This document shows positions 5,206-32,881 of a DNA stretch of 64,000 nt, piece after piece. The position numbers were made by a program, and so were the translations under genes. How positions within the stretch are numbered: position 1 is the first letter of the stretch; every line of letters starts with the position of its first letter. The stretch lies in NCBI RefSeq assembly GCF_003201105.1, contig NZ_QICJ01000011.1:62001-126000 (forward strand). The letters run 5' to 3'. Source of the DNA: Dyella sp. AtDHG13. GTDB taxonomy: Bacteria > Pseudomonadota > Gammaproteobacteria > Xanthomonadales > Rhodanobacteraceae. The notes under the pieces are model-generated. The model ran no database searches. It was not told the DNA's origin and saw only the letters and a program-made list of their open reading frames with translations.

Positions 5206-5330
5206 TTGTAGGCCCGCGCCCCTTGACCCTCCCCGGCAGACCCTTAGACTGTCCCGGATGGCTCGGCCATGGAGGGGAATGCGCGCCCAGCGCGCCCCGG
5301 GGCCGGCCACGATCAGAGGGGAATGACGGG

Positions 5331-6080
5331 ATGAAGGCTTTGACTCGCAGCGCGAGCCCGCGGCGTGTGCTGTTCGCGATCGGCACCATGGTCCTGATGG
5401 CCACGTCGGCCTGCGCCAGCGCACCCGCCACCACCAACAACCCGTTGCCCCAGGCGACGGCCGCGCAGGCCACGCCGGCTGCCCAGCCGCGGGTGCCGCT
5501 GAGTACGGTGGAGAGCCTGCGCCAGCTGATCGACAACCATCAGCTCACCGAGATGCGCACGACGTACAACAGCACCTATGGCGCGAGCCTGCTGTTCCGT
5601 CCGGAAACGCTGGGCTATTACGTGGTGCTGTTCCACGGCAAGGAATTCTGGCGCGTGATGCAGACCGATTCCTTCGACGAGGCCGAAAGCCTTTACCGCA
5701 CCTTCGTGTCGCAGACGCAGACGCTGGGCCAGGTGGAGATCGACACCACGCGCCTGGATGCCGGCAACAAGTACGCCGAGCACATGATCGCGGTGAACGA
5801 GGCCAAGCTGCGCAGCCTGCAGCAGGACGCGAACAACCAGCAGCAGCAGGCCCGCCAGGTGGCCGAAGCGCAGGAGCAGGCCCGTCAGCAGGCCGTCACG
5901 CTCAGCAGCGACCTGCACAACACCAATGCGCAGCTCGAAGCGGTGAAGCAGCAGGTGCGCGCGCTGGAAGCCATGCAGGCCAACCCCGCGCTGGTGCTGC
6001 CCACGCCGGCGCCCGCCCCGGCAAGCACCACCGCCACGCCGGCCGCGCAGCCCCAGCAGCCGCCCGCCGCGTCGCCCTGA
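5331..6080 (+). CDS. DUF2968 family exported protein
   Basis: 249-residue exported protein with a hydrophobic signal segment ending near ATSAC, a weak lipobox, so a lipoprotein is possible. The conserved part (SLRQLIDNHQLTEMRTTYNS, GYYVVLFHGKEFWRVMQTD) matches DUF2968. A long Gln-rich coiled coil (about 150-215) and a Pro/Ala tail follow. The function is unknown. The ATG follows a GAGGGGAATGACGGG leader. A strong intrinsic terminator lies 29 nt after the stop, so this is probably a single-gene unit. Confidence 0.7.
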   Translation: MKALTRSASPRRVLFAIGTMVLMATSACASAPATTNNPLPQATAAQATPAAQPRVPLSTVESLRQLIDNHQLTEMRTTYNSTYGASLLFRPETLGYYVVLFHGKEFWRVMQTDSFDEAESLYRTFVSQTQTLGQVEIDTTRLDAGNKYAEHMIAVNEAKLRSLQQDANNQQQQARQVAEAQEQARQQAVTLSSDLHNTNAQLEAVKQQVRALEAMQANPALVLPTPAPAPASTTATPAAQPQQPPAASP

Positions 6081-6108
6081 TTCGCAGGAAATCAGCGCAA
6101 GACTCTGA

Positions 6109-6145
6109 CCGCCGCGTCCTCACGGATCGCGGCGGTTTTGTTTTT
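6109..6145 (+). terminator. Rho-independent terminator after the DUF2968 gene
   Basis: Perfect 8-bp stem CCGCCGCG/CGCGGCGG with an 11-nt loop, followed by TTTTGTTTTT. It sits 29 nt downstream of the stop codon and closes the unit before the first S10 peptidase. Confidence 0.9.
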
Positions 6146-6344
6146 GCGACGCGGCGGAACACGACGAAGCGACCGCGCGTTCGATCGATGTACCCGCAAT
6201 TCCCTGCGTCCGCACTGGGCTGACCAGCATCTCACCGCGAAATTCGTCAGCCAAAAGCAAGCCAACCAGTACTTTTGTCACGGTCGCCGGCGCGCTCCCG
6301 TTTGCATACTCGGGGCTTACATCGATCCAACCCCGGGGAGCTCC

Positions 6345-7889: not shown

Positions 7890-7913
7890 TGCTCAGTGCG
7901 GACTTCCATCCTG

Positions 7914-8035
7914 CCTCACCGTCATTCCCGCGAAAGCGGAAGGCGTCTTTCAACAGCCGAAAGGCTGGTCATCCAGTGACTTTCGTGCCGGCCCAAAAGC
8001 GCTGGATCCCCGCCTGCGCGGGGATGACGGTGAGG
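7914..8035. repeat. REP-like intergenic palindrome (copy 1)
   Basis: Outer arms CCTCACCGTCATTCCCGCG and CGCGGGGATGACGGTGAGG flank an internal module (7948-7978) that recurs in inverted orientation at 35352-35382. It lies between the two S10 peptidase genes. It has no coding potential, and the hairpin could affect mRNA processing between the genes. Confidence 0.8.
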
Positions 8036-8086
8036 AAACGACATACGCATCGACAGCCCTGATTTGGCTCCAAGGAAACCACTGAC

Positions 8087-9646
8087 ATGCGCCACTTCCC
8101 CTTCGCATCACTCGCCCTTGCCACGATCCTCGCGCTGGGCACCCTGCCGCTGCACGCCGCCGATACGCCCAAGGACGCGCCCAAGTCCGAACAGGGCGAC
8201 AAGGACAAGAAGGCCGACGAAAACGAGCAGCCCGCGCCGCCCGAACATGCGTCGGTAACCAGGCACAGCGTACGCGTGGGCAATCGCAGCATCAGCTACA
8301 CCGCCACCGCCGGTCGCCTCACCATCCGCGACGACAAGGGCAAGCCGACGGTGAGCTTCTTCTACGTCGCTTACACCACCGACGGCGGCAAGAACAGCAA
8401 GCGGCCGGTGACGTTCTTCTACAACGGCGGCCCAGGCTCTTCGTCGATGTGGCTGCACATGGGCTCGTTCGGGCCGGTGCGCGTGGCCAACGATGGCGAC
8501 AAGCCGATTCCGCCCGCGCCGTATCACTGGGTACCCAATGACCAGAGCCTGCTGGACAAGAGCGACCTGGTATTCATCGATGCGCCGGGCACCGGCTATT
8601 CGCGCCTGGTGGGCAAGACCGAGGGCAAGGACGTGTGGGGCGTGGACCAGGATGCCGAGGCATTCAACAAGTTCGTCACCCGCTACGTCAGCGTGAACAA
8701 CCGCTGGAACTCGCCCAAGTTCCTGTTCGGCGAGAGCTACGGCACCACGCGCTCCGCCGTGCTGGTGAAGTCGCTGCAGGAAAGCGGCATGGAGTTCAAC
8801 GGCGTCATCCTGATGTCGTCCATTCTCGATTTCTCCGTCGCCGCGCCGGGCATCGATCACGGTTACATCGTGAACCTGCCGACGGAAGCGGCGATTGCCT
8901 GGTACCACAACAAGGTGCCGAACAAGCCGGCGGACATCAAAACCTTCCTTGACGAAGTGCGCCGCTTCGCCTCGGGCGACTACACGCTGGCATTGGCCAA
9001 GGGCGATGCCATCGACCCGGCCGAAGCCGATCGCGTGGCCAACCAGATGAGCCGCTACCTGGGCATCTCGCCACAGTACATCAAGGAAGCCAACCTGCGC
9101 GTCAGCCCCAGCCGTTTCCGCAAGGAATTGCTGCGCGACCAGCGCCTGACCGTGGGACGTCTGGACGGCCGTTTCCAGGGCATCGACCCGGACGCCGCCG
9201 GCGAGACGCCCGATGGCGACACCGCCAGCGATGCGATCACCGGCGCCTACGTGGCGGCGTTCAACCAGTACGCCGCGACGGAACTCAAGTTCACCGACGA
9301 TCGCCCGTACCTGCCCAACAACTACGCCGCCATCGGCAAGAACTGGGACTGGAAGCGCAAGAAGAACGGCGGCTGGCTGCAGGCCACCTACGTGGGCGAC
9401 GACCTGGGCGATGCCATGCGCCGCAACCCGCACCTGAAGGTGTTCTCCGCAAACGGGTACTATGACCTGGCCACGCCGTTCTACGCGACCGAATTCGACC
9501 TCACCCACCTCGGGCTGGAGCCGGCGGAACGCAAGAACATCTCCTACGGCTTCTATCCGTCCGGTCACATGATCTATCTCGACCCGACCTCGCTGCAGGA
9601 GACCAAGGCGGACCTGTCCCGTTTCTATGATGACGCAGCACCGTGA
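8087..9646 (+). CDS. S10 family serine carboxypeptidase, second paralogue
   Basis: 519-residue paralogue of the upstream gene, with the same architecture: a signal peptide (LALATILALGTLPLHA), a charged spacer, NGGPGSSS, nucleophile Ser217 in GESYG, NGYYDLATP and YPSGHMIY. Expected to be an exported serine carboxypeptidase. Most differences from the first copy are in surface loops and the spacer, so the duplication is probably not recent. Its stop overlaps the GTG start of the phosphoesterase gene (GTGA), indicating coupled translation of peptidase and phosphatase. Confidence 0.88.
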   Translation: MRHFPFASLALATILALGTLPLHAADTPKDAPKSEQGDKDKKADENEQPAPPEHASVTRHSVRVGNRSISYTATAGRLTIRDDKGKPTVSFFYVAYTTDGGKNSKRPVTFFYNGGPGSSSMWLHMGSFGPVRVANDGDKPIPPAPYHWVPNDQSLLDKSDLVFIDAPGTGYSRLVGKTEGKDVWGVDQDAEAFNKFVTRYVSVNNRWNSPKFLFGESYGTTRSAVLVKSLQESGMEFNGVILMSSILDFSVAAPGIDHGYIVNLPTEAAIAWYHNKVPNKPADIKTFLDEVRRFASGDYTLALAKGDAIDPAEADRVANQMSRYLGISPQYIKEANLRVSPSRFRKELLRDQRLTVGRLDGRFQGIDPDAAGETPDGDTASDAITGAYVAAFNQYAATELKFTDDRPYLPNNYAAIGKNWDWKRKKNGGWLQATYVGDDLGDAMRRNPHLKVFSANGYYDLATPFYATEFDLTHLGLEPAERKNISYGFYPSGHMIYLDPTSLQETKADLSRFYDDAAP

Positions 9647-11340
9647 GCAAACTCCCTCCCCCGCCTTTCCCCGACATCGCTGAAGAACAACCTGTCGATC
9701 CCGCGCGACGCCGTCTGCTGGGCGGCCTCGCGCTGGGCGGCGCGGCGCTCGCCATCGGCGGCACCGAGGCGTTGGCTGGTGGCGCCACCGGCGCACCTTC
9801 GCCGGTGGCGCCGGCCAGCATCGACGAGGCGCTGCGCGCGCAGGTGCAGAAGGTGGTGGTGATCTATCTGGAGAACCGCAGCTTCAACAACCTGTTCGCC
9901 AACTTCCCCGGCGTGGAGAAGCCGCTCAGCGCGCTCAAGCCCGAGGAGTACCTGCAGCGCGACCGCGACGGCACAGTGCTCGCCAAGCTGCCGCCGATCT
10001 GGCACGGCCTGGCGTCGCACAAGCAGACGGTGAACCATCGCACTTACCAGGTGATGCAGGACGACATCACCGACTTGCCGAATGCACCATGGGCGCTGCG
10101 CACGGGCAGCGGCGACCCGCTGCCGCACGGCGTGGTGACGCGCGACCTGGTGCATGCGTTCTACGAGAACCAGCGGCAGATCAACGGCGGCAAGAACGAC
10201 GGCTTCGTGGCCTGGGGCGACACCGGCGCGATGGTGATGGGCCACTACGACGACAGCGCCTCGAACCTGCGCCTGTGGCAGCTCGCGCGGCAATACACGC
10301 TGTGCGACAACTGGTTCATGGGCGCGTTCGGCGGCTCGTTCCTCAATCATCAGTATCTGGTCGCTGCGCAGCCGCCGTTCTATCCGGATGCAGACAAGAG
10401 CCCCGCGAAGTTCAACATCGCCATCACCGAAAGCGGCAAGGCGGATGATCCGCGCCTGCGGCTGGCCGACGATTCCCCCGCCAGCGCCATGCAGGGCCGA
10501 CCGAAGTTCGCCTCGCGCAGCCAGCTCACGCCCGATTTCTGGGCGGTGAACACGATGATGCCGCCGTACCAGCCGACCAGCACGCAATCGGGCGAGGACC
10601 CCACGCTCGCCGCCGAGGACAGCCCGAGCACGCTGCCGCCGCAGGAACACAAGACCATCGGCGATGTGCTTTCCGAGAAAGGTGTGGACTGGGCGTGGTA
10701 CGCCGGCGCGTGGCAACTGGCGCTGGACGGCAAGGGCGACGGCGACGAACACCAGTTCCCGCAACGGCCCAACTTCCAGATCCACCATCAGCCGCTGAAC
10801 TACTTCAAGAGCTTCGCGCCCAACACTCAGGCGCGCGCAAAACACCTGCGCGACGCTGGCGTGGGCGAAACACCGAAGACCAACCGTTTCCTCGCCGACA
10901 TCCAGGCCAACCGCCTGCCCGCTGTGAGCTTCTACAAGCCGCAGGGCGATCTCAACATGCACGCCGGCTATTCGGACGTGGATGCGGGCGACCGCCACGT
11001 AATGACCATCGTCCACGCGTTGCAGAAATCGGCGGCGTGGAAGCATACGGTGGTCATCATCACCGTCGACGAGAACGGCGGCTGGTGGGACCACGTGGCA
11101 CCACCCAAGGGCGACCGCTGGGGGCCAGGCTCGCGCATTCCCGCGCTCATCGTGTCGCCGCTGGCGAAGAAGGGCTACGTGGACCACACCATCTACGACA
11201 CCGGCTCCATCGCCCGTTTCCTCACGCGCCGCTTCGGGCTGGAAAAGCTGCCCGGCCTGACCCTGCGCGAAGAGGCCATGGTGGCCGCCGGCGGCCCGCC
11301 GCCGGGCGACCTCACCAACGCCCTGGAACTGGGCACCTGA
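9643..11340 (+). CDS. AcpA/phospholipase C-type phosphoesterase, Tat-like signal
   Basis: 565-residue phosphoesterase of the PF04185 (acid phosphatase AcpA/phospholipase C) family. The N terminus has ARRRLLGGLALGGAALA, which resembles a twin-arginine signal. The metal and nucleophile region VVVIYLENRSFNNLFANFPG and later DLNMHAGYSDVDAGDRHV and VDENGGWWDHVAPP match the family. It probably hydrolyses phosphate esters outside the cytoplasm. The GTG start overlaps the upstream S10 stop, so it belongs to the same operon, perhaps as a nutrient-scavenging set. A hairpin without a T tract follows the stop. Confidence 0.85.
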   Translation: MSKLPPPPFPDIAEEQPVDPARRRLLGGLALGGAALAIGGTEALAGGATGAPSPVAPASIDEALRAQVQKVVVIYLENRSFNNLFANFPGVEKPLSALKPEEYLQRDRDGTVLAKLPPIWHGLASHKQTVNHRTYQVMQDDITDLPNAPWALRTGSGDPLPHGVVTRDLVHAFYENQRQINGGKNDGFVAWGDTGAMVMGHYDDSASNLRLWQLARQYTLCDNWFMGAFGGSFLNHQYLVAAQPPFYPDADKSPAKFNIAITESGKADDPRLRLADDSPASAMQGRPKFASRSQLTPDFWAVNTMMPPYQPTSTQSGEDPTLAAEDSPSTLPPQEHKTIGDVLSEKGVDWAWYAGAWQLALDGKGDGDEHQFPQRPNFQIHHQPLNYFKSFAPNTQARAKHLRDAGVGETPKTNRFLADIQANRLPAVSFYKPQGDLNMHAGYSDVDAGDRHVMTIVHALQKSAAWKHTVVIITVDENGGWWDHVAPPKGDRWGPGSRIPALIVSPLAKKGYVDHTIYDTGSIARFLTRRFGLEKLPGLTLREEAMVAAGGPPPGDLTNALELGT

Positions 11341-11355
11341 TCTCGCTGCGTTGAA

Positions 11356-11380
11356 GCAGCCCGGCACCGCGCCGGGCTGC
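11356..11380 (+). terminator. Hairpin after the phosphoesterase gene
   Basis: Perfect 10-bp stem GCAGCCCGGC/GCCGGGCTGC with a 5-nt loop, 15 nt after the stop. There is no T tract, so it may stabilise the 3' end or be a weak terminator. Confidence 0.5.
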
Positions 11381-11447
11381 GCCCGAACGATCTGCTCACA
11401 TCCGCGGTGACATACTCCGCCCGCCTTTTCAGGGAGAGAGATTCACC

Positions 11448-11762
11448 ATGCGCCGCACTGCCCTCATCATCGCCGCACTCGCCGTCTTCGCCGCCAGCGC
11501 CAGCCACGCGCAGACGGGCCTGGGCGCCATCGCCAACCAGGCGCAGAACAACCTCAAGAACTTCGACATCGCCGACAAGAACAAGGATGGCCTGTTGACG
11601 AAGGAAGAAGCCGAGAAGGGCCCGGTGCCCTTTATCCGCGCGCATTTCGACGCCATCGACAAGAGCCATCGTGGCGCCGTATCCAAGCAGGACGTGATCG
11701 ACTACGTGCAGTCGCTGCAGCATCCGCAGGCGGCACCGGCGTCGGCGGGGTCGACGCACTGA
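11448..11762 (+). CDS. Small exported EF-hand protein
   Basis: 104-residue secreted or periplasmic protein with a clear signal peptide (ALIIAALAVFAASASHAQ). One canonical EF-hand loop is visible (DKNKDGLLTKEE), with acidic residues at the positions that bind calcium. A second degenerate loop (DKSHRGAVSKQD) follows, giving the paired arrangement usual for EF-hands. The target is unknown. It has its own promoter region with a CATACT -10-like box at 11411-11416 and a GGGAGAGAG ribosome site. Confidence 0.75.
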   Translation: MRRTALIIAALAVFAASASHAQTGLGAIANQAQNNLKNFDIADKNKDGLLTKEEAEKGPVPFIRAHFDAIDKSHRGAVSKQDVIDYVQSLQHPQAAPASAGSTH

Positions 11763-11806
11763 GTTAGGGTGCGCTGGCGAGGGCTTCGTCTCCAAGACAG
11801 CTACCC

Positions 11807-11948
11807 CTCACCGTCATCCCGGCGCAGGCCGGGATCCAGTCTCCGCTGTGGCCGGCTGTCGCCCATTGCCCGCCAAAGAAACACGTTGGCGTATCGCGAC
11901 AACCATGAACCGACGAAACTGGATCCCGGCCTTCGCCGGGATGACGAG
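11807..11948. repeat. REP-like intergenic palindrome (copy 2)
   Basis: Long inverted repeat between the EF-hand gene and the M1 aminopeptidase gene. Each arm is itself a small hairpin (CCCGGCGCAGGCCGGG and CCCGGCCTTCGCCGGG), flanked by CGTCATC/GATGACG. Same family as copies at 7914, 19364, 24026 and 35289. Confidence 0.8.
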
Positions 11949-12053
11949 CCTTGGACTGAGGCCTTGCCCGACAAACCCAGCGTGACCATCCACACCCGCG
12001 GCCAGCCACCCGCCAATGGCATACTCGGCGTTCCTGCTTTTGGAGTGACCCCG

Positions 12054-13910
12054 ATGCGCCCGTCCCACCTTCTCGCCATCGGCGCGCTTGCGCTGCCGCT
12101 GAGCGCCTTCGCCGCCGATCCGCATTCCTATGCCCAGCCCGACCAGGTTCGCGTGACGCACCTGGACCTGGACCTGAAGGTGGACTTTCCGCACAAGCAG
12201 CTGGACGGCCAGGCCACGCTGAAGCTGGATTGGAAGGACGCCAAGGCGAAGTCGCTGGTGCTGGACACGCGCGACCTGAAGATCGCCAGCGTCGAGGGCA
12301 TCGACGCGGCCGGCAAGGCCAGCGCGCTGAAGTACGCACTGGCGCCGCGCGACAAGGAACTGGGCAGCAAGCTCACCATCGACACGCCGGCGCATCCGGC
12401 ACAGGTGCGCATTGTCTATACGACCGCACCGACCGCCTCAGGCCTGCAGTGGCTGACGCCGGAGCAGACCGCGGACAAGAAGCTGCCCTTCATGTTCTCG
12501 CAGTCCGAATCCATCCACGCGCGCTCGTGGGTGCCGCTGCAGGATTCGCCGGCCATCCGCTTCACCTATGACGCGCACGTCACCGCGCCGAAGGACGTGC
12601 GCGTGGTGATGAGCGCACTGAACGACGCCGGCCATCCGCTGGATGGTGATTTCAGGTTCAGCCAGCCGCACCCGATTCCCTCGTACCTGCTTGCCATTGC
12701 TGCGGGCGATATCGCGGCGAAGGAAACTGGCCCGCGTTCGGCCGTCTATGCGGAACCGAGCATCGTCGGCAAGGCCGCGAAGGAATTCGAGGACACCGAA
12801 AAGCTGATCAAGACCGCCGAGTCGCTGTACGGCCCGTACGCCTGGGGCCGTTACGACCTGCTGGTGCTGCCGCCCTCGTTCCCGTTCGGCGGCATGGAAA
12901 ACCCCAACATGACCTTCGCCACGCCGACCCTGCTGGTGGGCGACAAGAGCCTGGTGTCGGTGATCTCGCATGAGCTGGCCCATTCGTGGTCGGGCAACCT
13001 CGTCACCAGCGCCGCGTGGCGCGACATCTGGCTCAACGAGGGTTTCACCACCTACGTGCAAGGCCGCATCACTGAGGCCGTCTACGGCAAGACGCTGGCG
13101 GACGAAGAAGCGCTGATCTCCGCGCGCGGCCTGGAAAAGAACCTCAAGGACATGCCGGAGAACGCGCAGCGCCTGGCGCCGAAGCCCGGCATCGGCGCGG
13201 ACGATTCGATCTCCGAGGTGCCGTATGACAAGGGCAGCTGGTGCCTGCGCACGCTGGAAGCGCGTTTCGGCCGCGAGACGTTCGACGCCTACCTCAAGGG
13301 CTATTTCGCGCATTTCGCCTTCCAGAGCATCACCACGGAGCAGATGCTCGACTACCTGAAGGCCAACCTGTTCGACAAGAACCCCGGCAAGATGAGCTGG
13401 GATGAAGTGCAGCAGTGGGTGTACGAGCCGGGCGTGCCCAAGAATGCGCCGCTGCCTGATTCGCCACGCTTCAACGCCATCGACAAGGAACGCGCCGCCT
13501 TCCTCGCCGGCTCGCTTGCCACCGGCAAGCTCGACGCGAAGAGCTGGAACACGCAGGAGTGGATGTATTTCCTCGACGGCCTGCCGGACGTGACGCCGCT
13601 GGACAAGATCAAGCAGATCGACGCCGCGTGGCACCTCACCGGCACGCCGAATGCGGAAATCGGCATGCGCTGGTACAGCCACGCCATCGCCGCGGGCGAC
13701 AAGGACGTGTGGCCGGCCGCCGCCGAGCACATGACGCGCATCGGCCGCCTGTACCTGACCATGCCGCTGTACCGCGCCTTCGTGAAGACGCCCGACGGCC
13801 TGGCCTACGCCGAACAGGTCTACGCCAAGGCCAAGAGCGGCTACCACCCGCTGACGCAGGACGCGGTGGAGTCGCTGTTCGCCAAGGCGAAGAAGGGCAC
13901 GAGCAAGTAA
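12054..13910 (+). CDS. M1 family metallo-aminopeptidase (leukotriene A4 hydrolase-like)
   Basis: 618-residue exported zinc aminopeptidase. A signal peptide ends near AFAADPHS. The N-terminal beta domain carries the substrate-anchoring motif GGMEN (about 279-283). The zinc site is HELAH (306-310), with the third ligand Glu329 in NEGFTTY. A C-terminal helical leukotriene-A4-hydrolase-type domain (TPNAEIGMRWYSHAIAAGD) follows. It releases N-terminal residues from peptides and complements the carboxypeptidases encoded upstream. The chosen ATG immediately precedes the signal peptide; the longer open frame upstream runs through the repeat and is rejected. Confidence 0.9.
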   Translation: MRPSHLLAIGALALPLSAFAADPHSYAQPDQVRVTHLDLDLKVDFPHKQLDGQATLKLDWKDAKAKSLVLDTRDLKIASVEGIDAAGKASALKYALAPRDKELGSKLTIDTPAHPAQVRIVYTTAPTASGLQWLTPEQTADKKLPFMFSQSESIHARSWVPLQDSPAIRFTYDAHVTAPKDVRVVMSALNDAGHPLDGDFRFSQPHPIPSYLLAIAAGDIAAKETGPRSAVYAEPSIVGKAAKEFEDTEKLIKTAESLYGPYAWGRYDLLVLPPSFPFGGMENPNMTFATPTLLVGDKSLVSVISHELAHSWSGNLVTSAAWRDIWLNEGFTTYVQGRITEAVYGKTLADEEALISARGLEKNLKDMPENAQRLAPKPGIGADDSISEVPYDKGSWCLRTLEARFGRETFDAYLKGYFAHFAFQSITTEQMLDYLKANLFDKNPGKMSWDEVQQWVYEPGVPKNAPLPDSPRFNAIDKERAAFLAGSLATGKLDAKSWNTQEWMYFLDGLPDVTPLDKIKQIDAAWHLTGTPNAEIGMRWYSHAIAAGDKDVWPAAAEHMTRIGRLYLTMPLYRAFVKTPDGLAYAEQVYAKAKSGYHPLTQDAVESLFAKAKKGTSK

Positions 13911-13914
13911 ATTC

Positions 13915-13946
13915 CGCGCGCGCCTCCTTGCAAAGGAAGGCGCGCG
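13915..13946 (+). terminator. GC-rich hairpin after the M1 aminopeptidase gene
   Basis: A near-perfect stem (GCGCGCCTCCTT paired with AAGGAAGGCGCGC) begins a few bases after the stop codon. It has no T tract, so termination is plausible but not proven. Confidence 0.45.
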
Positions 13947-13985
13947 ACGCCATCGATAGCTGCGCTTCCCACTGACGGTTTCCCC

Positions 13986-14990
13986 ATGGCCACCCAGAAA
14001 ACGACGCCCGTCACGCCTGCTTCCACGCGCCCGCTCTGGCAGCGGCTCGCCTTGCGCCGGCTCAAGTTCCTCGGCTTTGTCGCCATCGTGCTCGCCGTCG
14101 TGCTCGGCGGCTCCTACCTGTTCGCACCGCAATGGCTGCTGAGCGCCGACATCAAGCGCCAGGCCATGGCCGCGCACGTGGACAAGCACTCCGTACAGGT
14201 GGGCGACACGAACTGGGTGTACTACGAAGGCGGCGAAGGCCCCACCTTGCTCATGCTGCACGGCTTCGCCGCCAGCAAGGAAGTGTGGATGAAGCAGATG
14301 GAGCAGCTGTCGCCGCACTTCCACGTGATCGCGCCGGACCTGCCCGGCTGGGGCGAATCCAGCCGCGTCGATGGCGCCAGCTACAACATCGATGCGCAGG
14401 CGTCACGCCTGCAAGCGTTTATCGAAGCGCTGCATCTGCCGAAGGTGGTGCTGATCGGACATTCCATGGGCGGCGCCATCGCCGGCGTCTACGCCGCCGA
14501 GCATCCCGAACACGTCGCCGAGCTCGCCCTGCTCGATTCGTTCGGCCTGAAGGCCAACGAAAATGATTTCTCGCGCACGGCGATGTCCGGCAAGAATGTG
14601 TTCCTCTTCGACAACCGCGAGCAATTCGCCCAAGCCACCGCATGGGCATTCGCCAAGCCGCTGAACATTCCCGGCCGCTTCCAGGACGTGCTGATCGCAC
14701 GCAACCAGAAGGACCGCGCCTTCCTCGAACACACCTTCAACGAACTGCGCGACCCCTCGCAATACCTGTCGCTGCAGAGCCGCCTGGACAAGCTGCAGAT
14801 GCCGGTGCTCGGCCTGTGGTGCCACGACGACAAGATCATCGACATCTCCGCGCTCGACAGCCTGCGCAACGGCCTGAAGAACGCCAGCGGCATCAGCACC
14901 AGCATGCTGACCGGCTGCAACCACATGCCGATTGTCGAGAAGCCGGAGGAAACGGCGCGGATCATTACGCAGTTTGCGTTGTCGCACTGA
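13986..14990 (+). CDS. Membrane-anchored alpha/beta hydrolase
   Basis: 334-residue alpha/beta-fold hydrolase. An N-terminal membrane helix (LGFVAIVLAVVLGGSYLFA) anchors it. The oxyanion region is LLMLHGFAASKEVW. The nucleophile Ser160 is in GHSMGG, an Asp lies in LWCHDDKIIDI and the His in NHMPIVEKPEE. The substrate cannot be inferred; lipid or ester hydrolysis is typical of such proteins. It stands alone between the M1 aminopeptidase gene and the convergent sigma-factor operon. Confidence 0.82.
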   Translation: MATQKTTPVTPASTRPLWQRLALRRLKFLGFVAIVLAVVLGGSYLFAPQWLLSADIKRQAMAAHVDKHSVQVGDTNWVYYEGGEGPTLLMLHGFAASKEVWMKQMEQLSPHFHVIAPDLPGWGESSRVDGASYNIDAQASRLQAFIEALHLPKVVLIGHSMGGAIAGVYAAEHPEHVAELALLDSFGLKANENDFSRTAMSGKNVFLFDNREQFAQATAWAFAKPLNIPGRFQDVLIARNQKDRAFLEHTFNELRDPSQYLSLQSRLDKLQMPVLGLWCHDDKIIDISALDSLRNGLKNASGISTSMLTGCNHMPIVEKPEETARIITQFALSH

Positions 14991-15073
14991 TATCGATGGG
15001 CGCAGCTTAAACACGGTCGCCGCCTGATTCACCTGCGCGCCGCCGCATGAGCGGCCGCGCGCACTGGTTTTCC

Positions 15074-15640
15074 TCAATCCGCGAATCCGAGATTCACCGG
15101 TGCGCCAGGCAAGGTGTGCGCCGCGTCGTCGGTCACTGGCACATCCTTGCCTACCACTTCGAACTTCAAGCCGTCGGCCCAAACCTGGCCCTTGTTCTGC
15201 AGAAGCACGCCAAAGGCAATGTCCCGCGCATCGTTGGGCACGTCCAGCACGATGTCGTACCGCTGCCAGTCATGATCGCCCTGCGGTGCGCGGAGTTCCA
15301 TGTTGTCGAACGCCGCGCTCTTGCGATCGGCACCGTCGACGCGCATCCATAGCTGTCCCTTGCCCGCACCCTTCGTGCGCAGATAGCCGGAAAGACGTAC
15401 GCGCTTGCCATGATAGGCATCCGCATCGATGGTCTGCATCACGCTGCCGAAGCCCGCGTTCTCTTCTTTCGCACGGAGATAGACGCTGGTGCCACCCGAC
15501 ACCCGCGCGCTGCTTTCCGTACCGACGTCATAGCTGCTGGCTGCCGTACCGGTGACAAACCAGCCCTTTGGCACCGCCGCATGGGCGCCACTGGCAAGCA
15601 GGCTGCTCAGCAGCAACATGCAGGTAAAGCTCTTTTTCAT
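15074..15640 (-). CDS. Exported protein of unknown function in an ECF sigma operon
   Basis: 188-residue exported protein with a clear signal peptide (MKKSFTCMLLLSSLLASGAHA). The mature part is beta-rich (GGTSVYLRAKEENAGFGSVM, GKRVRLSGYLRTKGAGKGQL, WQRYDIVLDVPNDARDIAFG). The pattern resembles jelly-roll carbohydrate-binding-like domains, but I cannot assign a family. Its start overlaps the stop of the putative anti-sigma gene by 4 nt, so it is the third gene of a sigma/anti-sigma operon. It may be a co-regulated envelope component. Confidence 0.6.
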   Translation of the reverse strand: MKKSFTCMLLLSSLLASGAHAAVPKGWFVTGTAASSYDVGTESSARVSGGTSVYLRAKEENAGFGSVMQTIDADAYHGKRVRLSGYLRTKGAGKGQLWMRVDGADRKSAAFDNMELRAPQGDHDWQRYDIVLDVPNDARDIAFGVLLQNKGQVWADGLKFEVVGKDVPVTDDAAHTLPGAPVNLGFAD

Positions 15641-15999
15641 GGCGAGTTCCTTGTGTCAGGGAAAGGGTTAACGGGTGGCGTGTTCATCAAGAAGCGATCC
15701 GTCTCGCTAGGCGGAGGCGTAACATCCATGCGCAGCAACTCGGCCCGGGTACGGCCGACGTCCAGCCCTGCGTTCGCAGTGAGCGCAAGGTCGTCGGCAT
15801 GCCGGGGCCCGCTCGCCACGACCCAGATCAGCAACAAGGCTGCAGCGGCCAGAGGCCATGCTGCGCGATGGCCGATGCGGCGCAGCGCAGCCACGCGATC
15901 CGCGGCGCGCAGGATGCGCGCGTCCACCTGCGCCGCCGGCGTTTCCCGGGCTGAACGTCGATAGAGCGACAGCACCTCGTCCATGGCGTCGTCGCTCAT
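15637..15999 (-). CDS. Putative anti-sigma factor, single-pass membrane protein
   Basis: 120-residue protein with a cytoplasmic N-terminal part of about 45 residues, one membrane helix (AAWPLAAAALLLIWVVAS) and a short periplasmic tail. This layout, plus 4-nt overlaps with an ECF sigma gene upstream and an exported protein gene downstream, suggests an anti-sigma factor. No zinc-binding HxxxCxxC motif is present, so the assignment rests on context. Confidence 0.55.
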   Translation of the reverse strand: MSDDAMDEVLSLYRRSARETPAAQVDARILRAADRVAALRRIGHRAAWPLAAAALLLIWVVASGPRHADDLALTANAGLDVGRTRAELLRMDVTPPPSETDRFLMNTPPVNPFPDTRNSP

Positions 16000-17506: not shown

Positions 17507-18277
17507 TCAATCCGCCACGTCGGCAATCAACCGATCCAGCTCCGTCTTCAGCCACGCGCCGTTGAGGCGCAGCCAGTCGCGTTGTTCGCGCCATTCGTGG
17601 AACAGGCCTTCGACCTGCTGCCAGAAGCGGGGGGCGTGGCTGCGTACTTTCAGGTGGCAAAGCTCGTGTGCCAGGACGTACTTCAATGCGTTGGGTGGCG
17701 CGAGCGCGAGGGCGAGGTCGAGGTTGATGCGGTCGCGTGTGTCCAGGCTGCCCCACAGGCTTTTCATGGGGCGCACGCGCAGTGCGGTGGGTGCCAGGCC
17801 GAGTTGTGGCACGTAGCCGGCGAGCCAGCGCGATACGTCGCGGCGGATCTGCGCCTCGAAGTACGAGGCGAGCAGTCCGCGCGCCACGGGCAAGGCACGC
17901 GTGTGCGGACGTGGAATCACCAGGGTGAGCGTGCCTTCGCCGGCTTCGACCTTGGGGTACGGTCCATCCATCCAGTCGAGCTGCACGGTTTCGCCGCGCA
18001 GCGGAAATTCCGTGGGCGTGCCCACGCGCAAGGGAGGCAGCGGTTTGACGACCAGATGCAGCTCGTCGAGCTTGCGCTCGAGCCAGTCGGCGTGATGGCG
18101 AAGGAAGGCGCTGACCTGCGCCGGATGCGTGCCGTGCGGATACGACACGCGCGCGCCCTTGGGCGTCACGGTGAGGCGTAAACGGCGCGCGCGCGGATGC
18201 GCGGCCTTGAGCACGCGGATAGTGCTACCGCTTGCGGTGGCCAGTTCCAGCCAATCGCCTTCGAGGTGCTGCGTCAT
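17507..18277 (-). CDS. YgjP/DUF45-type M48-like metallopeptidase
   Basis: 256-residue cytoplasmic protein of the DUF45 (YgjP) family. The zinc motif HELCH appears in YVLAHELCHLKVRSHAPRFW, and the upstream block RPMKSLWGSLDTRDRINLDL is a family hallmark. It is predicted to be a zinc-dependent hydrolase; the physiological substrate is not known. The ATG start lies at the left edge of the 145-nt spacer that separates it from rdgC, which has the same orientation. Confidence 0.8.
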   Translation of the reverse strand: MTQHLEGDWLELATASGSTIRVLKAAHPRARRLRLTVTPKGARVSYPHGTHPAQVSAFLRHHADWLERKLDELHLVVKPLPPLRVGTPTEFPLRGETVQLDWMDGPYPKVEAGEGTLTLVIPRPHTRALPVARGLLASYFEAQIRRDVSRWLAGYVPQLGLAPTALRVRPMKSLWGSLDTRDRINLDLALALAPPNALKYVLAHELCHLKVRSHAPRFWQQVEGLFHEWREQRDWLRLNGAWLKTELDRLIADVAD

Positions 18278-18422
18278 GTTCCCCGCCCTACTACGACTAC
18301 GTGGCGTCCAGGCCCATCAGTGTCCCAAAGGGAATGTGGGGGGAGCATGCAGGCTTCGCAAGACGGCGCTGTGACCGCCCCAAAACCATACGGCGGGGGC
18401 GGCCCAGGCTGAACGAAGCGAC

Positions 18423-19340
18423 TCAGGCTTCGGCGGGACGCGGCAGGCCGAACCATTCCTCCAGCTTGCCGAGCAGGCGCTCGAGCTCCAGGGTGAGCAG
18501 GGCGAAGGTGGCGTCGGCCTCGGCGGCGGCGTCGGGGTGGCTGTCGCCCAGTTCGTCCGTCACTATGTCGAGGAACTTGAGCTTGCGGACGATCAGGTCC
18601 TCGCCGAGCACGAAGCTCATGCGCTCATCGAAGATGAGACCGAGCTGGAACACCTGCTTGCCGTTGCGCAGGTGCTCCTTCACTTCCTCGCCGTCCAGGT
18701 CCTGGCGGCGGCACTTGGCGATGGCGCCGGTGGCCGAGGCCGGGTCGCGCAGCTCCACTTCGTCGCCCAGGGCGAGGCCGGCCGGCAGGTTGCCGTTGGC
18801 CAGCCAGTCGGTCATGAGCACGCGCGGGCCCTCTTCCGGGGCCAGCGGCACGGCCGGGAAGCTGCCCAGCGCCTCGCGCATCTGGGTGAGCGTGTTCTCA
18901 GCGGACTTGCGACTGGAGGTGTCCAGCACCAGCCAGCCATTCTTCTTGTCCACGTAGGCGCGCTGGCGCGAGCTGCGGATGAAGGCGCGCGGCACCAGCT
19001 CGTTGAGCACGTCTTCCTTCAGGCGCTTGCGCTCGCGGCCGCCGACCTTGCGGCCTTCCTCTTCGGCGATCTTCTGCACGCGGCGGTGCAGCTCGTCGTT
19101 CACCACGGCGCCGGGCAGGAGTTTGTCCTCGCTGCCCACGGTGACCATGGTGCAGGCGTGCACGGCGTGGGTGAGCGGGGCCTCATCGCCCCGGCCCACC
19201 GGCGGCACGAAGCCCTTGGTGCCCATTTCCATGGGGCCGCAGGGGCGCAGGCGATAGTCGCCCAGCACCTCGTCGAGGCGGTTCAGGTCATCGGCAACGG
19301 CGGGGGAAAAGCGGAACAGCGTGAGATTGCGGAAGAACAT
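18423..19340 (-). CDS. rdgC: Recombination-associated protein RdgC
   Basis: 305-residue RdgC, a ring-shaped DNA-binding protein that limits RecA activity and is nucleoid-associated. It is recognised from MFFRNLTLFRF, the block CGPMEMGTKGFVPP, the acidic-basic linker EEEGRKVGGRERKRLKEDVL and ANGNLPAGLALGDEVELRDP. The length matches E. coli RdgC (303). A REP-like repeat lies immediately upstream of its start, between it and the aminotransferase gene. Confidence 0.95.
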   Translation of the reverse strand: MFFRNLTLFRFSPAVADDLNRLDEVLGDYRLRPCGPMEMGTKGFVPPVGRGDEAPLTHAVHACTMVTVGSEDKLLPGAVVNDELHRRVQKIAEEEGRKVGGRERKRLKEDVLNELVPRAFIRSSRQRAYVDKKNGWLVLDTSSRKSAENTLTQMREALGSFPAVPLAPEEGPRVLMTDWLANGNLPAGLALGDEVELRDPASATGAIAKCRRQDLDGEEVKEHLRNGKQVFQLGLIFDERMSFVLGEDLIVRKLKFLDIVTDELGDSHPDAAAEADATFALLTLELERLLGKLEEWFGLPRPAEA

Positions 19341-19363
19341 TCGGTATCCGTGCTTGTTTCTTT

Positions 19364-19450
19364 GTCGTCATCCCCGCGCAGGCGGGGTTCCAGCGACTTC
19401 AGGCGCGCCAAAGTCACTGGGTCCCCGCCTGCGCGGGGACGACGGTGAGG
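19364..19450. repeat. REP-like intergenic palindrome (copy 3)
   Basis: Inverted repeat with arms that contain CCCCGCGCAGGCGGGG and CCCCGCCTGCGCGGGG, edged by CGTCATC/GACGACG. It fills most of the space between rdgC and the aromatic aminotransferase gene. Confidence 0.8.
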
Positions 19451-28936: not shown

Positions 28937-31819
28937 TTACTTCGACGGCTTTTCCGACACCGCCTTGCCGTCGCCGTCGATCACCTGCACCTCGCCCAGC
29001 TTCAGGGCGCGCACGGGGGCTTCGATCTTCTTGAGGTCGCCCACGATCACCCAGGTCAGCGCGTTCGGCTTGATGATCTCCTTGATCGCGTCCTCCGCCT
29101 GCGGCTGGGTCACCGCCTCCGTGCGGGCCTTGAGGGTCTGCACGTAGTCTTCCGGGCGGTTGTACTGGACGATCTCGGTCATGGCGCCGAGCACTTCAGA
29201 GGCCGTCTCGAAGCTGCCCGGCAGGCCGCGCACATTGGAGTCCTTGATCTTGTCCACCTCCTGCTGGGTGAGCGGACGCGCGGCGATGACGGCGTTGGCT
29301 TCCTTGGACACTTCGTTGGCGGACTCGGCCGTCTTGTCGGTCTGCACCGGCGCGTACATCAGGAACGGACGCTGGCCGATCGCATCGCGCATGAAGCTGA
29401 AGGCGCCATAGGCCCAGCGCTTGTCCTCGCGCAGGTTCATGTTGAGGCGCGAGGTGAAGCTGCCGCCGAAGGCGCCGTTGGCCACATCGATGGCCAGCTC
29501 GTTCGGCGCCTTGCTCGAAGGCGCGAGCAGGCCGGCAAGGATCAGCGACTGCGGCGCATCCGGCTTGTCGATGAGGAACACGCGCGGCTTGGACTGCGCG
29601 GCCACGGTGGCGACGTTCTTCTTCGGCACGGCGCTGGACGGCGCCTTCCAGTCACCGAAGGCGGCATCGAGCTGCGGGATGATCTGCTGCAGCGTGGTGT
29701 CGCCGGCGACCAGGATCTTCACGTTGTCCGGGCGCAGCCAGTCGCGCTGGAACGCGGACAGGTCCGACGCCTGCATCGACTTGATGGCCTCCTCCGTGCC
29801 CGAGCCGGTGAACGGGATGCCGTAGGCGTGGTTGGCGCCGTACAGCAGCGGCGGCAATGTGCGCAGCGCCAGCGCGGTGGGCTGGGTCTTTTCCTGCGCG
29901 ATGCCGGCCAGCCACTGGCCGCGGATGCGCTCGATGTCGTCGGACTTGAACGCCGGGTTGCGCACGATGTCGGCGAACAGCGCCAGCGAGGGCTGCAACT
30001 GGTCGTTCAAGGCGTTGAGCGAGGCCGAGCACGCGTCGAGGCCGCAACCGACGCGGGTGATCGCGCCCAGGCGCTGCTTGCGCTTGGCCACTTCCACCGA
30101 GTCGAGATCCTTGGTGCTCTCGTTCATCAGCGTGGTGGTGAAGCTGGCGGTGCCGAGCTTGCGGCCCTGGTCGGCCGCGTAGCCGGCATCGAACAGCAGC
30201 TGGATGTGCGTCACCGGGATGGTGTGGCGCTTCGCCAGGATCACCTCGATGCCGTTCTTGAGCTTGCCGTGCTCCAGCTCCGGGAATTTCAGATCCGGGA
30301 ACTGCGCCACCTCGGGCACGCCCTTGCTGCGGTCCACCTGGCTCTTGCCCACGGTGTACTCGTGCCTGGCCGGCATCCTGGCGGCGGGGCGGCCTTCCTG
30401 CGGGCCCAGCGCGGCGACCTTGGCGTCCTCGGCGTCGAGGTTGTCGTTGGGGCCGGCCGGCAGCACGGTCAGCAGGTAGTCGCCCTTGATCAGCCACTTG
30501 TCGGCGGCGGCCTTGACGCTGGCCGGCGTGGCGGCGTCGGCGCGCTCCAGGTCTTTCTTGTAGGCGGCCGGGTCACCGCGATAGACCTGACCTTCCGCCA
30601 GGATCACCGCCTTGCCGCCGGAGCCGCCGACCTTTTCCAGGCCGCGCACGAAGCCGGCGCGGTTGCCGATCTTGGCGCGCTCCAGTTCGTCGGCGGTGGG
30701 ACCGTCGGCCAGGAACTTCTTCAGCTCTTCGGCGATGACCGCCTCGACCTTGGCCTGATCCACGCCTTCCTTGATGTCGGCCTGGATCTGGAACTGGCTG
30801 GCCAGCGCGAACGGCGAAATGCTGGCGGACACGTCATCCACCAGCTTGTCCTGATAGACCAGGCGCTGGTACAGGCGCGAGGTCTTGCCGCCACCGAGCA
30901 CGGTGGAGGCAAGGTCGAGCAGGACGGAATCGTCGGTGCCCAGCTGCGGCACCACCCAGGTGCGGTAGATGCGCGGCTGCGCCACGTGGTCGTGCTGGAT
31001 GCCGCGCGTGGATTTTTCCAGCGGCGTGATCCACGCCTGCTGGCGCGGCACCGGCGGGCCGGCCGGGATGTCGCCGAAGTACTTCTCGGCCTTGGCCTTG
31101 GCTTCCGCCACGGTGATGTCGCCCGCCAGCACCAGGGTGGTGTTGGCCGCGCCGTAGTAATCGTGGAACCACTGCTTCACGTCGGCCAGCGAGGCCGCGT
31201 TGAGGTCTTCCATCGAGCCGATGGTGTCGTGCTGGTACGGATGGTTGGCCGGATAGGTGTTGGACAGGATGTTCTGGTCCACGCGGCCATACGGGCGGTT
31301 CTCGCCCTGGCGCTTTTCGTTCTGCACCACGCCGCGCTGGGTATCGAGCTCCTTCTGGCCGATGGCGCCCAGCAGGTGGCCCATGCGGTCGGACTCCATC
31401 CACAGCGCCATGTCGAGCGCGGTGGTGGGCACGGTTTCGAAATAGTTGGTGCGGTCGAACCAGGTGGTGCCGTTCATGTCGGTGGCGCCGGCCAGCTCGA
31501 ACGGCTGGAAGTACGTGCCCTTGTGGTTCTCCGAGCCGGAGAACATCAGGTGCTCGAACAGGTGCGCGAAGCCGGTCTTGCCCTTGGGTTCGTCGGCCGA
31601 GCCCACGTGATACCAGATGCTCACGGCCACCACGGGCGCCTTGTGGTCCTCATGCACCACCACGGTCAGGCCGTTGGGCAGGGTGAAGCGCGTGAAGGCG
31701 ATGTCCGGCACGGCCTGGGTGGACTCGACGGGCGCCGCCTGGGGCGCGGCGATCGCGGGCAAGCCGGCCGACATGCTGAGTACACCTGCGACGAGCAGGG
31801 CGAGGGGCTTTCTTGCCAT
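28937..31819 (-). CDS. M16 family zinc peptidase, two-domain, exported
   Basis: 960-residue exported metallopeptidase of the pitrilysin (M16) family. The signal peptide is LALLVAGVLSMSAGLPAIAA. The inverted zinc motif HLFEH (86-90) is in the N-terminal half. The C-terminal half repeats the M16 fold without the motif (PVTHIQLLFDAGYAADQGRK), as is usual. Such enzymes degrade short peptides in the periplasm. The ATG at 31819 fits the signal peptide. A strong terminator follows the gene. The 321-nt space upstream contains regulatory palindromes that may serve this gene, the divergent peptide gene, or both. Confidence 0.9.
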   Translation of the reverse strand: MARKPLALLVAGVLSMSAGLPAIAAPQAAPVESTQAVPDIAFTRFTLPNGLTVVVHEDHKAPVVAVSIWYHVGSADEPKGKTGFAHLFEHLMFSGSENHKGTYFQPFELAGATDMNGTTWFDRTNYFETVPTTALDMALWMESDRMGHLLGAIGQKELDTQRGVVQNEKRQGENRPYGRVDQNILSNTYPANHPYQHDTIGSMEDLNAASLADVKQWFHDYYGAANTTLVLAGDITVAEAKAKAEKYFGDIPAGPPVPRQQAWITPLEKSTRGIQHDHVAQPRIYRTWVVPQLGTDDSVLLDLASTVLGGGKTSRLYQRLVYQDKLVDDVSASISPFALASQFQIQADIKEGVDQAKVEAVIAEELKKFLADGPTADELERAKIGNRAGFVRGLEKVGGSGGKAVILAEGQVYRGDPAAYKKDLERADAATPASVKAAADKWLIKGDYLLTVLPAGPNDNLDAEDAKVAALGPQEGRPAARMPARHEYTVGKSQVDRSKGVPEVAQFPDLKFPELEHGKLKNGIEVILAKRHTIPVTHIQLLFDAGYAADQGRKLGTASFTTTLMNESTKDLDSVEVAKRKQRLGAITRVGCGLDACSASLNALNDQLQPSLALFADIVRNPAFKSDDIERIRGQWLAGIAQEKTQPTALALRTLPPLLYGANHAYGIPFTGSGTEEAIKSMQASDLSAFQRDWLRPDNVKILVAGDTTLQQIIPQLDAAFGDWKAPSSAVPKKNVATVAAQSKPRVFLIDKPDAPQSLILAGLLAPSSKAPNELAIDVANGAFGGSFTSRLNMNLREDKRWAYGAFSFMRDAIGQRPFLMYAPVQTDKTAESANEVSKEANAVIAARPLTQQEVDKIKDSNVRGLPGSFETASEVLGAMTEIVQYNRPEDYVQTLKARTEAVTQPQAEDAIKEIIKPNALTWVIVGDLKKIEAPVRALKLGEVQVIDGDGKAVSEKPSK

Positions 31820-31962
31820 CACGACACTCCTGTTTTTGATGGATGAGCGAATCGAGGCTAGCCACGCCCCAGGGGCTTTGGCAAATGACCAATGGCATGG
31901 TGGACCACCCGCGGGCCGCTTCGTTCGTCGCCACGGCGCCATAACCAGAACGCACCCCGTCC

Positions 31963-32014
31963 GGACAGTGTCCGCGCCCTGTCCGGCCACGCCCGGTCGC
32001 TGTCCGCGGACAGC
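31963..32014 (+). promoter_or_regulatory. Array of TGTCC/GGACA boxes, putative enhancer for a sigma-54 activator
   Basis: GGACA-G-TGTCC at 31963-31973, a single TGTCC at 31980-31984 and the perfect 16-bp palindrome GCTGTCCGCGGACAGC at 31999-32014. The array is centred about 115 nt upstream of the predicted start of transcription, the usual position for activators of sigma-54 promoters. The protein that binds it is not encoded nearby. Confidence 0.6.
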
Positions 32015-32078
32015 GAAGCGCCTTCCCTGAAAAACAGAAATTCCCGAAAAGACAGCCACTTGAGCCACAAGCAGCCGT

Positions 32079-32093
32079 TGGCACGGCGCTTGC
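32079..32093 (+). promoter_or_regulatory. Sigma-54-type (-24/-12) promoter
   Basis: TGGCAC-N5-TTGC with the exact GG-N10-GC spacing (GG 32080-32081, GC 32092-32093). It matches the sigma-54 consensus closely. Transcription would start near 32104, leaving a leader of about 37 nt to the ATG at 32141. Confidence 0.7.
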
Positions 32094-32140
32094 CATATCT
32101 ACCGTGCAGGACCTACCCCACTTTCATCGGAGACATGATC

Positions 32141-32350
32141 ATGAAATTCGAAACCCTGATGCTGCGCGGCCTCTTCGTTGCCTGCCTGCTGGTTTGCGGA
32201 CTCGTGCTGGGTGCCATGGTGAACGCGACTCCCCAGGCCATTCGCCTCGCCGCCGCCGGCAGCGCCGGCCAGTTGATCGCCACGCCCGCCGCCACCGCGT
32301 GCGCCTTGCCGCCCGATGGCGTGGTGTGCCCCCGCATCACCAACGGCTGA
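32141..32350 (+). CDS. Small exported or membrane peptide behind a sigma-54 promoter
   Basis: 69-residue product with an N-terminal hydrophobic segment (LMLRGLFVACLLVCGLVLGA) that could be a signal peptide or membrane anchor. A 40-residue Ala/Pro-rich tail contains two Cys residues near the end (CALPPDGVVCPRITNG), perhaps a disulfide. I do not recognise a family. The ATG at 32141 is chosen because GGAG lies 8 nt upstream; an ATG at 32135 is only 2 nt from it. A hairpin (CAACGG/CCGTTG, 32341-32369) overlaps the stop. Coding status is supported by the promoter, ribosome site and signal-like N terminus. Confidence 0.6.
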   Translation: MKFETLMLRGLFVACLLVCGLVLGAMVNATPQAIRLAAAGSAGQLIATPAATACALPPDGVVCPRITNG

Positions 32351-32413: not shown

Positions 32414-32881
32414 ATGCTGCATGTCATCCTCTTTCGACCGGAAATACCCCCCAACACCGGCAACGCGATCAGGTTGTGCGCCAACACCGGCGCCTCGTTG
32501 CACCTGATCCGCCCCCTGGGATTCGAGCTGGACGATGCCCGCCTGCGCCGCGCAGGCCTGGACTATCACGAATACGCGCAGCTGGCCGTGCATGACGACC
32601 TTGCCAGCTGCCTCGAGCGCATCGGCCAGCCACGCGTGTTCGCCTTCTCCACGCGCGGTCGCGTGGCCCATGTCGACGCCCGCTTCGCCGAAGGCGACGC
32701 CCTGCTGTTCGGCTGCGAAACCGCCGGCCTGCCCGGCGAGGTGCTCGACGCCATTCCCGAAGCGCAGCGCCTGCGGCTGCCGATGCGGCCGGACAGTCGC
32801 AGCCTCAATCTGTCCAATACCGTGGCGGTGGCGGTGTATGAGGCGTGGCGGCAGATGGGGTTTGTCGGCGCGGCGCGGTGA
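32414..32881 (+). CDS. trmL: tRNA (cytidine/uridine(34)-2'-O)-methyltransferase TrmL
   Basis: 155-residue SPOUT methyltransferase that modifies the wobble nucleotide of tRNA-Leu isoacceptors. The sequence starts with [20 protein letters not shown]. The trefoil-knot SAM site is seen in [11 protein letters not shown], then [20 protein letters not shown], the diagnostic motif 3. Length and motifs match E. coli TrmL (157). Confidence 0.95.

Follow-up and report, generated by a model that had tools for sequence, protein, structure and literature searches.

The window, by which we mean the whole 64,000-nt stretch of DNA that was analysed, carries a small peptide gene between a divergent M16 peptidase gene and a downstream gene that we take to be a TrmL/SpoU-type tRNA methyltransferase. 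Ahead of the peptide gene lies a σ54-type promoter with an upstream array of TGTCC/GGACA boxes. The features of the locus are as follows.

28940-31819, minus strand: divergent M16 peptidase gene (Pfam PF05193 and PF00675)
31963-31967, minus strand: outer box GGACA, a half-site in reverse orientation; 61% mean identity in 20 same-genus orthologues
31969-31973, plus strand: outer box TGTCC, which with the box at 31963 makes GGACA-N-TGTCC; 44% mean identity in 20 same-genus orthologues
31980-31984, plus strand: box TGTCC, its first base 21 bp ahead of the core palindrome; 100% in 20/20 orthologues
31999-32014, unstranded: 16-bp palindrome, its core TGTCCGCGGACA at 32001-32012 invariant in 20/20 orthologues
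32050-32062, plus strand: degenerate IHF-like site AGACAGCCACTTG, 6/9 consensus letters, 29 bp upstream of the -24 element
32079-32084, plus strand: -24 element TGGCAC, exact; 100% in 20/20 orthologues
32090-32093, plus strand: -12 element TTGC, exact; 100% in 20/20 orthologues
32129-32132, plus strand: ribosome-binding site GGAG, 8 nt upstream of the ATG at 32141
32141-32350, plus strand: predicted 69-aa small membrane peptide of the MKFE family, long type with a C-x8-C tail (alignment, dN/dS, helix prediction)
32414-32881, plus strand: downstream neighbour, presumably the TrmL/SpoU-type tRNA methyltransferase; synteny in 46/46 long-type loci

A preliminary description had placed a σ54-type promoter at 32079-32093, paired and single TGTCC/GGACA boxes with a 16-bp palindrome at 31963-32014, and a good ribosome site before the ATG at 32141, and all of these were located there. 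The promoter, TGGCACggcgcTTGC, matches TGGCAC-N5-TTGC exactly, contains the GG-N10-GC core of σ54 promoters and is the sole exact match in the window, where 0.22 matches were expected and at least one copy occurred in 21 of 100 shuffles. The distance from TTGC to the ATG was 47 nt; the 48 nt given before was thus off by one, and the positions of promoter and ATG stood. The core of the perfect palindrome GCTGTCCGCGGACAGC, which reads TGTCCNNGGACA, is found once in the window (0.06 expected; present in 6/100 shuffles). TGTCC words across the window numbered 107 against 109.6 expected and were not enriched, so the weight rests on the clustering of the boxes and on their conservation. By shuffling, the window alone gave moderate evidence for promoter and palindrome, and it was the comparison with relatives that settled the observation. 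The genome also encodes rpoN and NtrC-type activators, with six strong EBP matches.

The comparison within the genus used 20 orthologues, counting the window among them. The palindrome core, the box at 31980-31984, TGGCAC and TTGC were identical in every one, and the ribosome-site block at 32123-32134 was 98% identical. The spacer between palindrome and promoter showed 44% identity over 32016-32045, 63% over 32046-32066 (the IHF-like block) and 35% over 32067-32077, and the 16 bases separating the box at 31980 from the palindrome were fairly well kept. As a group, the boxes were more conserved than the other bases of 31956-32078 (0.81 versus 0.57, p=4.8e-5). Conservation of the boxes and the -24/-12 elements in relatives had been proposed as a check, and it came out in favour of the promoter and array. 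One correction to the array as first described is needed: since the two outermost boxes, at 31963 and 31969, are weakly conserved, the conserved core consists of the box at 31980 and the palindrome, which is presumed to be the primary site of the σ54 activator.

The peptide ORF runs from the ATG at 32141 to a stop ending at 32350; an alternative in-frame ATG at 32135 is too near GGAG to serve as the start. Among the 20 same-genus orthologues dN/dS was 0.16 overall, 0.10 for codons 1-27, 0.18 for the remainder and 0.28 for the last 18 aligned codons. Judged by these ratios, the 69-codon gene is real and under purifying selection. AlphaFold2 modelled one helix at residues 2-28 (block-mean pLDDT 87, 97 and 85) and a tail of low confidence (pLDDT 46-56). 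From this predicted helix and the hydropathy, by which a single hydrophobic helix accounts for most of the conserved protein, we read the product as a small single-span membrane protein. The preliminary description recognised no family in it, and indeed neither the window peptide nor its 51-aa paralogue matched any family in Pfam or NCBIfam; a 28-aa member gave two far sub-threshold NCBIfam matches only, at 12.7 and 12.8 bits.

A single-sequence search of 61 genomes returned peptide matches in 33 of them, comprising 20/20 of the genus and 13/17 other family members, and in 0/24 other members of the order. In a separate pattern scan, the named relatives among the matches listed belong to Dyella, Rhodanobacter and Frateuria. 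Two of the matches were weak. That in G023 (E=0.003, one of the 33) proved spurious when its boxes, promoter and neighbours were inspected. That in G020 (E=0.005; locus L281, contig C4) is a genuine, highly diverged peptide, MKTELFFLRSLLL...CPDRIRDYVICP, which retains K2, E4, L8 and M26, the boxes, an exact promoter and the M16 and TrmL neighbours. The profile search that had been suggested for the peptide matched 1 of 369 class-level genomes, the window's own; at most 16 candidates were scored per genome and G032 was the sole other family genome among those listed, so its sensitivity was limited. Outside Rhodanobacteraceae the MKFE peptide appeared once only in the searches run, in G460, assigned to family f2. 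This Rhodanobacter-like peptide has a full promoter (L245), and its contig is likely an assembly contamination.

In the fetched loci, 90 raw matches gave 64 distinct peptides once upstream-start variants were removed and 43 after thinning at ~86% similarity. Of these, 37 were aligned and six were omitted by hand, in which K2, E4, L8 and M26 were present by eye. In the alignment M1, K2, E4, L8 and M26 never vary, and C19 is conserved to at least 90%. Members with ~5 extra N-terminal residues (e.g. L038, L118, L122, L129 and L132) were missed by the search expression and stand outside the alignment; inspected by eye, they retain the module behind the extra residues. Lengths range from 27 to 72 residues. 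Nine of the 37 aligned members have only 27-29 residues and are the hydrophobic module alone, and long-type members end in C-x8-C or C-x9-C (CALPPDGVVC in the window). In several loci a short peptide followed by a long one was read directly as a tandem. The earlier wording, an exported peptide with a two-Cys tail, therefore describes one sub-type: what is conserved is the hydrophobic segment at the N terminus, and several members have nothing else.

We then followed the palindrome and promoter as a pair. The window's genome has 14 TGTCC-N0-2-GGACA sites, against 3 for the reversed control. In three cases an exact TGGCACN5TTGC follows at 77-91 bp, for a chance expectation of ~0.003 by our own rough estimate, and these three sites precede the window peptide, the 51-aa paralogue (C1:592352) and a gene run at the start of contig C6. 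A strict pattern, TGTCCNNGGACA-N55-85-TGGCNCN5TTGC, was found in 134/197 family genomes, covering 22 of 26 genera, with 0/197 for the reversed control; across the order it occurred in 64/299 genomes, beyond the family only in G259 and G265. The strict pair was not found in 63 of the 197 family genomes, and when 40 of these were searched with a relaxed promoter, TGGCAY-N6-TGC, 14 matched and 26 did not. Since the relaxed pattern occurs in just 7/149 genomes of f2, the sister family, expansion of the regulon seems to be a trait of Rhodanobacteraceae. With no reversed-control match in 197 genomes the DNA signature is specific, and much of the regulon can be read from sequence.

Over 137 distinct segments the start-to-start distance from palindrome to promoter was 75-81 bp in 119, 64-68 bp in 15, 54-55 bp in two and 96 bp in one (reversed control, 1). 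These distance classes lie about one helical turn apart, a phased spacing of the kind that distal activator sites show. Extra half-sites cluster as well, with TGTCC at -12, -21 and -32/-33 and GGACA at -27 and -38; TGTCC at -21 is the commonest position (54/135 segments). Seventeen of the 61 peptide promoters have the IHF consensus WATCAR-N4-TTR (shuffle mean 0.1), each time 28-30 bp upstream of the -24 element; among 99 other promoters it occurs in seven. The IHF-like site of the window is weak and occupies the same place as in the other peptide promoters. Sites of the PhoB/OmpR direct-repeat type were considered, since TGTCC half-sites recur every 9-12 bp, and this reading was dropped in view of the σ54 promoter and the Fis-type EBP.

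The 162 distinct palindrome-promoter segments lay before HlyD in 57 cases, before MKFE peptides in 67 (62 assigned by script and five read from the script's 'other' list), before a permease in 17, and before an S33-like hydrolase (6), pcm (5, one genus), DUF4440 (3) and a 216-aa protein (1), counts that are not frequencies, as the loci were partly picked for diversity or oddity. The remaining six comprise two before a 55-aa small peptide of family f4 and four without an assigned target. The hydrolases in the regulon are the S33-like proteins and a DUF885 protein.

Several of these targets carry observations of their own. The DUF4440 proteins (L108, L109 and L111) and the S33-like hydrolases (L110, L112, L114, L123, L131 and L159) are scattered members whose N termini resemble signal sequences by eye; one of each was scanned against Pfam. 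The f4 peptide, MNYRRSTRAQ..., is unrelated to the MKFE family and stands behind the same palindrome and promoter (L195 and L196), and at another locus of that family (L241) a 42-codon hydrophobic ORF lies between promoter and HlyD, overlapping the HlyD start. In the window's genome pcm is followed by the gene for a TolC-type outer-membrane efflux protein. A copy of TGTCCGCGGACA precedes this pair (L283, C4:301376), and no GG-N10-GC site with 6/10 letters was found there; genus g42, unlike the window's genome, has a full array promoter before pcm.

The run on C6 encodes, on one strand, HlyD, an ABC ATPase, ten MacB/FtsX-type permease ORFs, a DUF885 protein, an EBP and a histidine kinase. The permease ORFs, at 2523-15510, were recognised by a motif script in nine cases; the first is the sole one scanned against Pfam. 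The EBP occupies a 470-codon frame at 17625-19037, has receiver (PF00072), Sigma54_activat (PF00158) and Fis HTH (PF02954) domains, each above cut-off, and carries GAYTGA at the σ54-contact motif. It scored below the cut-off of each of the best 25 of 108 matching NCBIfam equivalog models, among them AtoC (360.2/714), PEP_resp_reg (342.9/502.6), NtrC (338.7/558.6) and GlrR (290.9/763). Its identity was 80-100% in the peptide-bearing family genomes examined, 74% in G020 and 65-70% in families f2, f3, f4 and f12. The kinase has hydropathy windows starting at residues 8-14 and 53-61, with an external loop of very roughly 20-30 aa.

About 17 kb separate the array from the EBP. The DUF885 gene is preceded by a gap of ~210 nt, the EBP gene by one of 90-165 nt. 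A simple terminator scan of these two gaps found none; EBP and kinase may share the HlyD transcript. By eye, the gap before the DUF885 gene (15511-15721, L075) contains a long inverted repeat, CTGTTAGCACTAT ... ATAGTGCTAACAG. Separately, a small predicted exported protein is encoded between EBP and kinase (19041-19403, L061/L075). This protein and its relatives among L165-L194 end in C-x7/8-C[HR], as in NCVPMGPGGACH and NCAATPMDPSCR, and the frame was not picked up in several of 30 loci. The resemblance of this spacing to the C-x8-C of the window peptide hints at a possible shared partner or disulfide feature.

Upstream of HlyD, 29 loci were compared, 13 from the family and 16 from other families of the order (29 of 30 searched genomes matched). 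A -24/-12-like element stood directly upstream of HlyD in 29/29. At least two exact boxes were present in 26/29 (13/13 family and 13/16 other-family loci), so that the loci with fewer than two were 3 of the 16 from other families, and the exact palindrome was found in 10/13 and 7/16, respectively. Coordinates of both HlyD and the EBP were available for 22 genomes; in 19 of these the two genes share a strand and lie no more than 21 kb apart, and in G027, G039 and G056 they are unlinked. Because the palindrome-promoter pair precedes both the peptides and the HlyD run, and boxes precede HlyD in most of the other-family loci, the EBP of this run is the likely activator; the C6 EBP, at the end of an array-driven gene run, is the best candidate.

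Taken together, we consider it fairly probable that the array is the enhancer of a σ54 promoter controlled by a response-regulator EBP, most likely the C6 EBP, that drives both the exporter run and the small membrane peptides. The promoter, the array, their conservation, the shared regulon and the predicted single-helix peptide family can be read from the sequences compared; from these we infer the identity of the EBP, the IHF step, a place for EBP and kinase on the HlyD transcript, and the location and role of the peptide. On stimulation, the partner histidine kinase, with its two membrane spans and short external loop, would phosphorylate the EBP, which would assemble on the palindrome and flanking half-sites. 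Bending by an IHF-type protein would bring it to RNA polymerase-σ54 at the -24/-12 elements, and the EBP would raise its own exporter and regulator genes and, in parallel, the small membrane peptides. The window peptide would insert as one helix with its tail outside. Instead of being released as a free signal, it would work in the inner membrane as a partner of the exporter or kinase, in an accessory or feedback role.

The invariance of palindrome and -24/-12 elements in the genus and the pair found in 134 of 197 family genomes, with none in the control, argue for this circuit. Against it stand the pcm palindrome without -24/-12 elements, the poorly conserved outer boxes and the weak IHF-like site of the window, as well as the 63 family genomes in which the strict pattern was not found, the three genomes with HlyD and EBP unlinked, the three other-family HlyD loci with fewer than two boxes, and the ~17 kb from array to EBP. 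The tie between peptide and exporter is further weakened by HlyD runs with boxes in families where no MKFE peptide was detected, and co-occurrence of peptide and EBP is confounded by ancestry, because both follow the same clade. A more specific form of the proposal is tentative and less likely than not: a self-activating σ54 two-component exporter module would exist across the order, and its Rhodanobacteraceae output would be a new family of peptides of 27-72 residues that, by docking through the K2/E4/L8/M26 helix, set the gain of either the exporter or the short-loop kinase.

The peptides could instead be precursors of a secreted signal or bacteriocin-like peptide, exported by the array-driven HlyD/MacB/TolC system and sensed by the kinase in an autoinducing loop. 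Among the curated neighbours of the exporter are the darobactin exporter and a family of putative bacteriocin exporters. The gene after pcm is of TolC type, and in one genus pcm has array and promoter (5 segments); short and long peptides sometimes stand in tandem. However, the scores fall far short of both darobactin cut-offs (375 and 450), and the most conserved residues sit in the hydrophobic segment. The nine aligned members of 27-29 residues end inside the predicted membrane helix, and therefore no cargo is left in them. By eye, no cleavage or double-glycine motif was seen. RiPPs and bacteriocins have a leader, a variable core and a maturation gene; here the neighbours of the long type are M16 and TrmL, and no leader motif was seen, again by eye only. 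We regard such a loop as unlikely.

Just as doubtful, in our estimate, is that the array answers to a different activator, whether one of the five remaining EBPs or some other DNA-binding protein, with the HlyD-linked EBP a mere co-target or neighbour. The six strong EBP matches in the genome leave room for this, as do the three genomes in which HlyD and EBP are unlinked. Sites of Fis-type EBPs are usually dyads, and TGTCC direct repeats ~9-12 bp apart are atypical of them. One further EBP (C4:319230) lies ~18 kb from the palindrome at C4:301376, much like the distance of the C6 EBP from its array; other genes intervene, and at that place no array promoter was detected. On the other side, boxes precede HlyD in several families, HlyD-EBP linkage holds in 19/22 genomes, and the other five EBPs are all more than 17 kb away from each of the 14 genomic palindromes, the C6 EBP being the only one of the six in a same-strand run that starts at an array promoter.

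The preliminary description also hinted at a peptide-peptidase pair. Synteny fits this idea: where 700 nt or more of upstream sequence was available, a divergent M16 gene adjoins 37/37 long-type copies, and the diverged G020 copy has one too. Towards the M16 gene there was a single partial and weak -24/-12 match of 7/10 letters on the minus strand (first base 31871). Of 19 short-type copies with as much upstream sequence, 11 lack an M16 neighbour; eight of 28 distinct short-type copies sit at the M16-TrmL site, which is also the long-type site. A block at 31878-31897 (the TTTGGCAAATGACCAATGGCA region) by the M16 start is near-invariant in the genus and recognisable in other genera, and is probably the M16 gene's own control site. 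Weighing the synteny against the short-type loci and the weak match, we rejected the pairing as the main idea: membership of M16 in the array regulon is not supported, and it is very improbable that peptide and peptidase share the array as a functional pair, be it as substrate and protease or as toxin and protease.

The σ54 circuit that we favour is assembled from parts of known kinds, namely σ54 enhancer promoters, two-component EBPs, MacB-type exporters and small membrane proteins. Within the portions of the open-licence literature that our search reached, no description of the array, the regulon or the peptide was found, and the combination, the DNA site and the peptide family were not seen. 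One testable circuit would join an uncatalogued peptide family, a σ54 two-component regulator and a MacB-type exporter run that several families of the order have and that is uncharacterised. Assigning small membrane proteins is difficult, and here a shared switch points to likely partners.

GlrR/glmY, with TGTC-N10-GACA sites, and NtrC/glnA are σ54 promoters served by NtrC-type response regulators, and the array resembles them in its -24/-12 elements, distal palindromic sites, intervening IHF-like site and receiver-AAA-Fis activator. It differs in its site, TGTCC-N2-GGACA with direct half-sites, in an EBP below the NCBIfam cut-offs (for the best 25 of 108 models), and in its targets, an exporter and small membrane peptides. 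Compared with the darobactin exporter DarBCD, the ATPase gave its best curated score (NF038007, 259.9 bits) and the adaptor its third (NF038010, 84.6 bits), whereas the cut-offs were not reached (259.9/375 and 84.6/450) and the window peptide looks unlike a RiPP precursor. AcrZ, MgrB and YohP are small single-span bacterial membrane proteins. The MKFE peptides, mostly of 27-72 aa, share one hydrophobic helix with them; they differ in having no family match and in a σ54 control common to an exporter and two-component run. Finally, BceAB-BceRS modules combine an FtsX-like ABC transporter with a short-loop kinase, the BceRS-type sensor having two spans and a loop of ~25 aa or less beside an FtsX-type transporter. 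The C6 run resembles them in its FtsX-family permeases near a kinase with two hydrophobic spans, whose external loop of very roughly 20-30 aa may be short enough for this type, and is set apart by an HlyD adaptor of the tripartite type, ten permease ORFs and a σ54-type regulator. Should the circuit sense peptide antibiotics or envelope damage, which is speculation, Gram-negative bacteria would have in it a σ54-based counterpart of the Bce-type modules.
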